From the NCBI GenBank assembly GCA_013816615.1, contig JACDED010000042.1:1-32878 (forward strand): a stretch of 32,878 nucleotides of DNA, given 5' to 3'. The stretch comes from Bacteroidota bacterium (GTDB lineage Bacteria; Bacteroidota; Bacteroidia; B-17B0; Aurantibacillaceae). This document shows positions 1,348 through 3,624 of the stretch, piece by piece. Numbering within the stretch: position 1 is the stretch's first letter; each line of letters begins with the position of its first letter. Position numbers and translations under genes: made by a program. The notes under the pieces were generated by a model, which was not told the DNA's origin, searched no databases, and worked only from the letters and a program-made list of their open reading frames with translations.

Positions 1348-2322
1348 TTAATTATAATAAAAAATAAAACTGTAAGCCAATCCCATTAGCATAATAAATT
1401 TAAGTAATAAACTGGCATTCTTAAACTGTTTTGATTCTTTTGCTTTTAATGTCATTAATGATAAAATTATTAATGGAATAATTAAAGCCAACATTATGTA
1501 TACATTATTTTGATTAATAATGATCCTGTAAAATTTAAAAGTATTATAAATAACAAACGATAAAAGAATGACAGTAATAACGATCAAAAAGAAAACATTG
1601 AGCTTACTTGCTGGTATGCCCCAAACTATTGGCATTGTATGGCCTCCGGTAGCTTCATCACCTTTATGATCTTCCATATCTTTTATTATTTCGCGGGCAA
1701 GACTGGTAATAAAGGCAAACAATGAATAAATAAATGTGATCTTAAAACAAGAAAGTATTACATCTTTATGCAGAGATGCAAAACCCGGATGGATCTTTTG
1801 CATCAATCCCATTTCATAAACAAAAGGCATAAAAGCAACAGAGGCTGTTAAAATAGAAACAACAAGGTTACCAACCAGCAATTGCTTTTTAAAATGTGTA
1901 CTGTAAAACCATAATAATGTTGCTGCTACAATATGAAAAATTGCAAGACGTAAATATCCCGTTTTTAATGCAGCATACATACCAATAACAATTCCTAAAA
2001 CAGTAAACGTAATATGCAGGATAATTGCCCAACGGCGTTTAATTATTTTTCCTACAACAACTGTATCAGGATGATTGATCAGATCGGTCTTCATATCAAA
2101 ATAATCGTTAATAATATAACCGGCAGCGGCAATAAGAACGGTGCTAAGAACAACCAAATAAAATAACGCATCATTCAGCTCTAAAGGAATACTATTTTGA
2201 TTGAGCACTTTTTGTAAAACAAAATAGCGCAATAAAATTTGCGTTAAAGCTATCATGATCAAATTTTCGATCCTGATGAGCTTTAAAAAAGCAAAAATTT
2301 TATTATTTAATAGTTTGTTCAA
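1348..2322 (-). CDS. UbiA-family prenyltransferase, geranylgeranylglycerol-phosphate geranylgeranyltransferase-like
   Basis: 324 residues, very hydrophobic, with about eight or nine predicted membrane helices. Both Asp-rich motifs of the UbiA superfamily are present: N72-D73-x2-D76-x3-D80 ('INDYFDMKTD') and D215-x2-D218-x3-D222 ('KDMEDHKGDEATGG'), which bind the Mg2+-diphosphate of the prenyl donor. Bacteroidota homologues are commonly annotated as geranylgeranylglycerol-phosphate geranylgeranyltransferase, the second prenyl transfer in archaeal-type ether lipid synthesis. The neighbours (DUF2520, KdsC-like HAD and Maf, with no men genes) fit that subgroup better than MenA, but the substrate is inferred. 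Its start lies only 19 bp from the first RAYT palindrome, which may separate it from the upstream HAD gene with which it would otherwise form an operon. Confidence 0.8.
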   Translation of the reverse strand: MNKLLNNKIFAFLKLIRIENLIMIALTQILLRYFVLQKVLNQNSIPLELNDALFYLVVLSTVLIAAAGYIINDYFDMKTDLINHPDTVVVGKIIKRRWAIILHITFTVLGIVIGMYAALKTGYLRLAIFHIVAATLLWFYSTHFKKQLLVGNLVVSILTASVAFMPFVYEMGLMQKIHPGFASLHKDVILSCFKITFIYSLFAFITSLAREIIKDMEDHKGDEATGGHTMPIVWGIPASKLNVFFLIVITVILLSFVIYNTFKFYRIIINQNNVYIMLALIIPLIILSLMTLKAKESKQFKNASLLLKFIMLMGLAYSFIFYYN

Positions 2323-2341
2323 ATTACCACTTTACATTTGG

Positions 2342-2393
2342 AATACCCCTGCCAGGGTTATTCGATTTTATCCCAATTAACCCTGGCAGGGGT
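2342..2393. repeat. REP-like palindrome, copy 1
   Basis: 16-bp perfect arms at 2345-2360 and 2378-2393 around a 17-nt spacer. Each arm contains its own mini-hairpin CCCTG-C-CAGGG, so the unit is two inverted REP-like hairpins (BIME-like). It lies between the RAYT stop (2402) and the UbiA-family start (2322). Confidence 0.9.
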
Positions 2394-2401
2394 TTACAAG
2401 G

Positions 2402-3049
2402 TTAAAAATCTTCTACTAAATTAATCAAATTCTTATTGTAATGCGTTTTCTGAAAATTATCTATATCTCCGAATAAATTAATTACCTCTTTGCCTTTTAT
2501 TAATGGATCAGAGTTTGAAATAATTGATGCATATGAGGTATGTGGCCATTCGTTAATTTTTCCAACGAATCCATGCTCAACAGGATTTGAGTGAATATAT
2601 AATATCACTTTTTTTAAATACTCGTCAGAATCAATTTCCTTTTTTCTATAAGGCTTTTGAAATAAACTACCAGTTCTAGACTCTTGTATGTTTATAGCCT
2701 GTGAATATCCATTGAAAAAATTTGAAAATTGTTTACTTAAAATTTTATTTAAGGCCTCAATGCCTAATTTTTTAAATTCAATAAATGAAACTTCTTTTGG
2801 AACTAATTTATTTTCGTTCTTTAAAAGTTCAAAAATCTCTTTTTCAGGCTTAATTTTTACAAGAAAATGAAAATGATTTGGCATTAAACAATAGGCGTAT
2901 GTATCAACTATTGGCGAGACATATTTAAAGTATTTACTTTTAAAATATAAATAGTTTGCTTCTGTATAAAAGATATTGCACTTTGCATTACCACGATTAT
3001 AAATGTGATAATAAAAATCCGGCTTTAAATATTCTACTTTTTGCGACAC
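2402..3049 (-). CDS. REP-associated tyrosine transposase (Y1/HUH family)
   Basis: 215 residues. The HUH metal-binding motif is H59-F-H61 in 'LMPNHFHFLVKI', the candidate catalytic tyrosine is Y115 in 'FFNGYSQAIN', and the RAYT signatures 'GSLFQKPYRKKEI' (127-139) and 'YIHSNPVEHG' (151-160) are intact, so the protein is probably functional. The family is a single-copy domesticated relative of IS200/IS605 transposases that nicks single-stranded REP hairpins and is thought to spread or maintain them. Translation appears to start at a GTG (3047-3049), which gives the normal N-terminus 'YYHIYNRGN'; the next Met is near residue 56, inside the HUH domain. No accessory tnpB is present. Flanking palindromes on both sides are the expected substrates. 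Confidence 0.92.
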   Translation of the reverse strand: MSQKVEYLKPDFYYHIYNRGNAKCNIFYTEANYLYFKSKYFKYVSPIVDTYAYCLMPNHFHFLVKIKPEKEIFELLKNENKLVPKEVSFIEFKKLGIEALNKILSKQFSNFFNGYSQAINIQESRTGSLFQKPYRKKEIDSDEYLKKVILYIHSNPVEHGFVGKINEWPHTSYASIISNSDPLIKGKEVINLFGDIDNFQKTHYNKNLINLVEDF

Positions 3050-3060
3050 TTGTTATATTA

Positions 3061-3111
3061 AATACCCCTGCCAGGGTTATTCGATTTTACTACAATTAAC
3101 CCTGGCAGGGG
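3061..3111. repeat. REP-like palindrome, copy 2
   Basis: 15-bp perfect arms at 3065-3079 and 3097-3111 around a 17-nt spacer, matching copy 1 except for three adjacent bases in the loop. On the minus strand the hairpin is preceded directly by GTAG, the tetranucleotide found at the foot of enterobacterial REPs. However, that GTAG also contains the TAG stop of the HAD gene, so it may be coincidence. Confidence 0.9.
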
Positions 3112-3624
3112 CTACCACTTTAAAATTTCCCATTTACTTTGCACACGCAATACCTGTTCAATAATATCTCTTACACAACCTTCGCCCCCGTTTTTATCAG
3201 ATACATATTGGCAAATTTCCTTTATATCAGATGCTGCATCTTTAGGACAAACAGCCACACCTACCCTACTCATAATCTCATGATCCGGCAGATCATCCCC
3301 CATAAATAAAACTTCTTCGTCGGTTAAATTATTTAATTTTAAATACTCCAAATAACATGCCAGTTTATCATGTTGATTAATAAAAACATCGGTAACTCCT
3401 GTTCTTAATAACATATTTTTTACCGCAATATTATTTCCACCGCTTATAATAACAATACGGTATGCTTTAGCAACTGCTAAATGAATAGCATAACCGTCTT
3501 TTGAGTTCACATTGCGTACTACTTCACCACTTTCCATCACCAACACCTTACCATCCGTCATCACACCATCCACATCAAACATGAGTGTTGTTATTTTATT
3601 TAGTTTCTGTTTAAAGTTAAGCAT
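3112..3624 (-). CDS. KdsC-like HAD-family phosphatase
   Basis: 170 residues, a cap-less HAD phosphatase of the KDO-8-phosphate phosphatase (KdsC/C0) type. Motif I is D17-V-D19 in 'MFDVDGVMTDG' (nucleophile and acid/base), motif II is 'IISGGNN' at about 59-65, and motif IV is G109-D110-D111 in 'FMGDDLPDHEIM'; the C-terminal 'GGEGCVRDIIEQVL' is typical of KdsC. KdsC removes phosphate from KDO-8-P in lipopolysaccharide synthesis. No other kds gene is nearby, however, and in this neighbourhood (UbiA, DUF2520, Maf) another phosphoester substrate is possible. It overlaps the DUF2520 gene by 8 nt, indicating translational coupling. Its TAG stop touches the RAYT palindrome, so its C-terminus could have been redefined by the insertion. 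Confidence 0.85.
   Translation of the reverse strand: MLNFKQKLNKITTLMFDVDGVMTDGKVLVMESGEVVRNVNSKDGYAIHLAVAKAYRIVIISGGNNIAVKNMLLRTGVTDVFINQHDKLACYLEYLKLNNLTDEEVLFMGDDLPDHEIMSRVGVAVCPKDAASDIKEICQYVSDKNGGEGCVRDIIEQVLRVQSKWEILKW

Follow-up and report, generated by a model that had tools for sequence, protein, structure and literature searches.

The region at positions 2342–3111 of the window (the whole stretch of DNA that was analyzed, 32,878 nucleotides from a Bacteroidota bacterium) very probably consists of a RAYT gene of the Bacteroidota type accompanied by its own REP doublets. It is a further example of an already known RAYT/REP kind, with a tidy insertion history. An earlier note on this DNA described a Y1/HUH transposase between two near-identical double palindromes, and the open reading frame, repeat, folding and alignment data bear out this description. 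The RAYT gene sits between a HAD phosphatase gene and a UbiA-type prenyltransferase gene, all three on the minus strand, and the TAG stop codon of the HAD gene adjoins the palindrome. Read from the HAD gene towards the UbiA gene, the locus contains the following features:

3112–3624, minus strand: HAD phosphatase of the KdsC/YrbI family, upstream neighbor (TIGR01670, 127 bits, cut-off 106.95)
3113–3122, minus strand: left copy of the 10-bp flank repeat TAAAGTGGTA, which is the end of the HAD gene and lies one base from the palindrome
3065–3111, minus strand: palindrome 5' of the RAYT, two facing arms CCCT-GCC-AGGG (15-bp perfect arms, 17-nt spacer)
2402–3049, minus strand: RAYT, a REP-associated HUH/Y1 transposase of the TnpA-REP type (215 aa, GTG start; HFH at 59–61, Tyr at 115)
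2345–2393, minus strand: palindrome 3' of the RAYT, in the same orientation as the 5' copy (16-bp perfect arms, 17-nt spacer)
2325–2334, minus strand: right copy of TAAAGTGGTA; after it comes the leader that directly trails the HAD stop codon in empty sites
1348–2322, minus strand: UbiA-type prenyltransferase, downstream neighbor (Pfam UbiA)

The RAYT protein scores just above the cut-off of the Pfam profile Y1_Tnp (24 bits, cut-off 23). Its match to NCBIfam REP_Tyr_transpos (E 3e-16, 59.5 bits) falls under the curated cut-off of 80 bits, which weighs against the preferred explanation; two cas-linked relatives reached 72 and 52.3 bits with the same profile. We searched with an AlphaFold2 model of the protein (mean pLDDT 91.6) using Foldseek, and PDB entry 4er8, a TnpA-REP enzyme together with a REP hairpin, was the top match (E 1e-7) and the sole one up to E 0.001, followed at weaker E-values by the ISDra2 and IS608 transposases. 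A profile of 30 RAYT relatives (A1), searched against the PDB sequences, gave 4er8 (E 4e-6) as its sole match up to E 0.01. In an alignment of 30 relatives H59, H61 and Y115 are invariant and F60 is nearly so, in agreement with the intact H59-F-H61 and Y115 reported earlier. The enzyme is predicted to have the TnpA-REP fold with the HUH and tyrosine residues, and Y115 is, by its position, which matches that of the E. coli residue, the probable catalytic residue. By prediction and sequence, the Y1/HUH fold, the H-x-H motif and the single tyrosine of RAYT/TnpA-REP proteins are all present.

The RAYT is single-copy in its own genome, where the nearest relative is 42–54% identical, i.e., near-identical IS-like copies are absent. 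This relative is encoded on contig C196, and two remoter matches are 25–30% identical. The C196 gene (G000:C196:6731–7303, locus L010) is a RAYT of another lineage, located between a pyruvate-dehydrogenase-like and a threonine-aldolase-like gene (named by eye); RAYTs of this type occupy the same place in genomes G019 and G061, and also in two contig-end pieces in G012. The doublet of the C196 RAYT differs from that of the window and is found on the 5' side only.

The two palindromes of the window are direct repeats, 719 bp apart. As stated in the earlier note, positions 2342–2392 and 3061–3111 are identical at 48 of 51 positions, and our comparison of the 51 bp confines the differences to the adjacent loop bases 2371–2373. 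When folded as single-stranded DNA, both palindromes were highly stable on both strands (z −6.55 to −7.36), with 0/200 dinucleotide shuffles as stable. The arm-to-arm hairpin dominates; a lone arm folds weakly (−2.1 kcal/mol, equaled by 26/200 shuffles). The arms were previously proposed to fold as CCCTG-C-CAGGG. They do fold, but in place of the 1-nt loop we prefer the reading CCCT-GCC-AGGG, with 4 bp in the stem and 3 nt in the loop, because of the single-stranded fold and the arm rule of the whole family (see below), with the caveat that pairing of the outer loop bases is possible in the arm of the window itself. No Rfam match was obtained within the window at gathering scores.

A GTAG is present beside the second copy of the palindrome, as the earlier note remarked, but it belongs to the stop codon of the HAD gene. 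Across the class, GT[AG]G was found within 6 nt of 1/136 palindrome ends, versus 4/136 in the control, which rules out GTAG as the REP foot of these doublets and makes its presence here a coincidence. The absence of a GT[AG]G foot, a known guide for canonical REPs, weighs against the preferred explanation.

For the class survey, 76 RAYT loci were chosen from 103 matches; the others were 7 from the genus of the window, 19 that were short or partial and a second match inside locus L184. Inverted repeats with an arm score of at least 13 were present within 250 bp of 42/76 RAYTs, on both sides in 17, and at 0/62 control pairs at a distance of 2 kb. Doublets of this kind are specific to the surroundings of RAYTs. 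The 34/76 RAYTs that show no palindrome at the cut-off used weigh against the preferred explanation. The arms were limited to 12–24 nt and each was counted once, which left 79 distinct arms; in 48 of these an inner stem of 4 bp or more encloses exactly three bases (mean of the shuffles 2.9, maximum 8). Inner loops of 2 and 4 bases occur in 1 and 0 of the 79 arms, respectively. Loops of 1, 5 and 7 bases (26, 29 and 28 arms) are also above the shuffles, as would be expected if the same stems were counted there with one pair more or fewer. The outer loop bases are unable to pair in 27 of the 48 arms, so that there the three-base loop is no hidden 1-nt loop; they could pair in 21, including the window.

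Palindromes are also found inside the RAYT frames at 26/76 loci, a count without a separate control. They are often 33 bp long, a length by which the frame is kept. Among 29 such stretches, the interval from the HUH to the Tyr motif accounts for 20 and other positions for 6, while 3 were not placed. The inner palindromes (e.g., in L171, L172, L181 and L228) read as peptides such as NLQGFQNLEGL. The window RAYT has only a variable stretch between the two motifs and no intact inner palindrome; in its model the variable stretch precedes the long helix, and 12 residues lie between this helix and the next strand. Two further loci stood out: the RAYT of G028:C192 (L101) is directly followed on its 3' side by three or more AGACCTTCAAGGTTT...AAACCTTGAAGGTCT doublets in a row plus additional arms, and the RAYT-like open reading frame at L045:2998–4542 is 515 aa long and seems to combine a RAYT with an additional domain. 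The idea that RAYTs generally lie co-oriented between genes was considered and rejected, as without the 12 cas loci described below the same strand was used in 46/61 cases upstream and 40/62 downstream, compared to 275/366 background pairs.

The genome of the window (G000; 4.68 Mb, 246 contigs, 97.4% complete) contains three occurrences of two perfect 15-bp arms 10–25 nt apart, namely the two at the RAYT and a solitary one at G000:C232:54139–54185. The earlier note had tied its reading to further copies of the palindrome in the genome, and this third copy exists. Allowing up to two mismatches, only three more single arms were found in this genome beyond the three doublets. For REP membership, two palindromes beside the RAYT and one dispersed are a weak sign on account of the low number: three doublets are far below classic REP numbers, and a single extra copy is thin as evidence of mobility. 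Three relatives, G021, G007 and G030, share just the gene downstream of the third doublet, and the stretch next to that gene showed no such doublet there; they differ in the left-hand genes, so that none offers a clean empty site. The flanks of this doublet (L009) lengthen the hairpin stem to approximately 21 bp, and a terminator-like hairpin adjoins it.

To reconstruct the insertion, we used the syntenic loci of relatives. The HAD gene is present in 56/60 genomes searched (own included); its junction with UbiA was read in 30 of these 56, and 27 of the 30 loci also hold UbiA. Among these 27 junctions (own included), a RAYT separates the genes in four (G000, G007, G010 and G030). The other 23 have no RAYT, and their gaps range from −4 to 75 bp except for one of 303 bp. 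An inverted repeat with an arm score of at least 13 was found at 0/23 of the RAYT-less junctions, so the palindromes do not occur at the syntenic loci read that lack the transposase; their presence there would, according to the earlier note, have refuted its reading. The HAD stop codon TAA runs directly into the TTTGAA of the UbiA leader in G021, G019 and G006, which are close relatives, and in G000 the same leader lies beyond the right-hand palindrome. In the species tree (29 of 30 rows, one being too gappy), G000 and G007 are sisters (support 100/98) beside a clade of four RAYT-less species (joined at 87/66). Since the two are sisters and the neighboring clade is RAYT-less, a single insertion in their common ancestor explains the state of both species most simply.

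In G000, TAAAGTGGTA beside the insertion recurs at its far end, and is there followed by the leader that trails it directly in empty sites. A 10-bp match between 40-bp flanks was obtained in 20/5000 mononucleotide shuffles and in 8/1602 40-mers of the window; chance is less likely than these figures indicate, because the repeat is placed precisely at the two junctions. In G007, G010 and G030 exact flank matches reach at most 6 bp, the repeat of G007 having one mismatch, so that the flank repeat rests mainly on G000. Most simply, it is a by-product of the founding insertion. Transposition of the IS200/IS605 type by HUH enzymes is not known to duplicate its target, and a duplication of the flank is unexpected and weighs against the preferred explanation.

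The comparison of G000 with G007 gave dN/dS values of 0.107 (RAYT), 0.070 (HAD), 0.044 (UbiA), 0.010 (Maf) and 0.205 (the DUF2520 gene), and the RAYT is under purifying selection. The dS values of RAYT, HAD and UbiA are alike (1.04, 0.87 and 0.96, respectively), and because of this, together with the low dN/dS, the RAYT was most likely inherited with its neighbors after the insertion and kept functional. The palindrome arms of the two species are identical at 57/60 positions, with loops changed in both sequence and length. As they are near-identical at a depth where the loops have diverged, the arms are constrained or renewed. The suggestion that only the loop bases may tolerate variation is roughly borne out between these two species, but not as a strict rule: the loop of the third copy differs more widely, and the 5' copy of G007 carries three arm changes.

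The RAYTs of G010 and G030 may go back to the same ancient insertion as those of G000 and G007 or to separate ones. That all four HAD-UbiA RAYTs reflect one ancient insertion that was lost many times, and not a recent one in the ancestor of G000 and G007, is somewhat unlikely in our view. RAYT trees were made from 32 of 44 rows (short, odd or fused ones were dropped by hand), from 28 hand-picked rows and, as a larger quick tree, from 93 of 94 rows (one was outside 165–300 aa, and several partial genes were already absent). A clade of the four RAYTs was not rejected (p-AU 0.148; one side of the branch at support 27/20), and a decayed likeness of the flank repeat can be seen by eye in G010, both of which would suit a single old event. 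However, the four carriers are scattered on the species tree (3 changes), requiring many clean losses, and the larger quick tree places G010 with G030, and the window RAYT and G007 nearer to RAYTs of other families.

If the locus is a RAYT with its own REP doublets, the RAYT would bind the folded doublet on single-stranded DNA at replication, nick it at or near its foot via Tyr115 and join it elsewhere. Doublets could in this way now and then be moved or copied in trans, which would give rise to the solitary third copy and to the palindromes inside RAYT genes, and the RAYT gene itself would be kept as a host-borne, rarely moving gene that is read from the HAD-UbiA gene string. Alternatively, the left palindrome, the RAYT and the right palindrome might form an IS200-like unit that transposes as one piece. 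The direct orientation of the palindromes on both sides, the base-level junctions and the flank repeat are consistent with this, as are the RAYTs of G422 and G303, which by their 80% identity against 57% for Cas1 indicate that RAYT genes can spread apart from their neighbors. We nevertheless consider a whole mobile element unlikely, as its own genome holds no second copy of the unit, the next RAYT there (42–54% identical) has a different palindrome on its 5' side only, and palindromes on both sides accompany only 17/76 class RAYTs at the cut-off used. The earlier note had called the locus a self-contained REP-transposase unit. The association of a RAYT with cognate REP doublets is supported. 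A self-contained unit is a plausible reading of the insertion between HAD and UbiA, but a second copy of the complete unit was not found in this 97%-complete genome, and the gene was apparently inherited vertically after the insertion.

A role of the palindromes as transcription terminators or as hairpins that stabilize the RNA of the flanking genes, with the RAYT being incidental, is highly improbable. They do lie between co-oriented genes and form stable folds, and one terminator-like match is present at 3077–3064. Yet the HAD-UbiA junctions of 23 RAYT-less relatives do without such a hairpin, no run of at least 4 T directly follows the full hairpins, two terminator-like matches in the region compare with a shuffle mean of 0.7 (sd 1.0), and the same palindrome architecture accompanies RAYTs across families.

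RAYTs of this family are also found in type II cas operons. In the window's genus (loci L127–L132), the gene order is cas9-RAYT-cas1-cas2 in G026 and cas9-cas1-RAYT-cas2 in G036, and cas1-RAYT-cas2 in G002 and RAYT-cas1-cas2 in G062, where no Cas9 was recognized in the available stretch; G014 shows cas9, a further gene, cas1 and part of a RAYT at the end of one contig, and part of a RAYT together with cas2 at a second contig end. From their layout, the operons probably belong to subtype II-C. In the class survey, 12/76 loci (L182, L184, L191, L193, L195, L199, L203, L206, L208, L214, L218 and L228) belong to a cas9-cas1-cas2 string, in each case with the RAYT on the strand of both neighbors. 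The RAYT is located between cas9 and cas1 or between cas1 and cas2, sometimes with another open reading frame towards cas9; cas2 was not seen in L218, and L220, with a RAYT 1.7 kb upstream of a cas9, is excluded from the 12. In G043 (L184), RAYT matches are present on both sides of cas1. Named carriers are Ginsengibacter hankyongi (L040, NZ_VYQF01000003.1) and L034 (CAJWSQ010000003.1).

Type II cas1 (TIGR03639) was detected at 84 places in 83 of 395 class genomes, one of them below the family cut-off. A RAYT match lies within 3 kb at 17/84 of these places, all on the same strand and the farthest at 1287 bp, a proportion that may be favored by the search profile A1, of which 5/30 rows are themselves cas-linked. 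Both genes occur in 24 genomes and are neighbors in 17 of them. Neighboring genes were read at 14 of the 17 places, where the RAYT is within the cas9-cas1-cas2 gene string; for those in G176, G085 and G141:C58 only coordinates were used, and among the RAYT matches some are partial or contain a stop. The cas label requires 11 changes on the quick tree of 93 rows (16.8 in shuffles), and at least 3 of the 11 are forced by well supported branches. Because the label changes repeatedly, the linkage of RAYT and cas genes is a repeated association and not that of one lineage. The dN/dS of the RAYT is 0.118 for the G036/G002 pair. Between L206 (G422) and L208 (G303), from two families, the RAYTs are 80% identical and Cas1 57%, so that the RAYT there seems to have spread independently of its cas neighbors.

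One interpretation is that the type II CRISPR operons of Bacteroidota recurrently include RAYTs of this family as a selected component, namely as HUH enzymes repeatedly recruited beside Cas1-Cas2 that perhaps process single-stranded or hairpin DNA in spacer acquisition or array upkeep, with the window unit as a free-standing sibling. We put this forward tentatively and regard it as quite unlikely; alternatively, the RAYT may be a tolerated passenger in cas operons. A literature search by title and abstract, to whose coverage most subscription papers do not belong, returned no description of RAYTs in cas operons among the entries listed. The accessible text on a Flavobacterium type II-C locus reports ordinary IS982 and IS256 copies (PMC10309648), and that of the RAYT classification contains no mention of CRISPR (PMC6006769). 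The placement of RAYTs inside CRISPR operons may be new.

The shared insertion, the uninterrupted sites in close relatives and the flank repeat allow the insertion to be studied at the base level. The repeat rule (two facing stems, three-base loops, no GTAG) makes the doublets easy to find, and as RAYTs of this family lie beside about one fifth of the sampled type II cas1 places, the purpose of domesticated RAYTs becomes testable in CRISPR adaptation.

Compared by description, the family of the window shows one trait each of two known RAYT subclasses. According to the accessible parts of the classification (Quentin et al., 2018; PMC6006769), subclass 2.4 (Bertels group 4) carries REP copies inside RAYT genes with the frame unbroken, and subclass 2.6 (Bertels group 5) has atypical, GTAG-less flanking structures. 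With subclass 2.4, as portrayed there, the family shares its occurrence in Bacteroidetes, the NH[IFV]H motif, the variable stretch between HUH and Tyr, REPs flanking the gene and in-frame REP copies within RAYT genes (here in relatives, at 26/76 loci); it differs in lacking the GT[AG]G foot, and the window's own frame in lacking an intact inner palindrome. With subclass 2.6, again as far as that description reaches, it shares the Bacteroidetes, the atypical flanking structures without GT[AG]G and copies elsewhere in the genome. The 21-residue insert between helix C and strand 4 reported for this subclass contrasts with a gap of 12 residues in the window model, a comparison in which the helix names were matched by us and not through reference sequences. 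Like the E. coli REPtron and REPINs, as outlined in part in PMC6006769, the locus combines an HUH transposase of the 4er8 fold with adjacent inverted REP pairs; unlike them, it has three doublets and not a high copy number, arms with three-base loops and no foot tetranucleotide. The HUH/Tyr fold found by Foldseek and the hairpins on both sides are shared with IS200/IS605 elements (IS608, ISDra2), from which the unit differs by being single-copy and vertically kept, by its large palindromes in place of small subterminal hairpins, and by its flank repeat.
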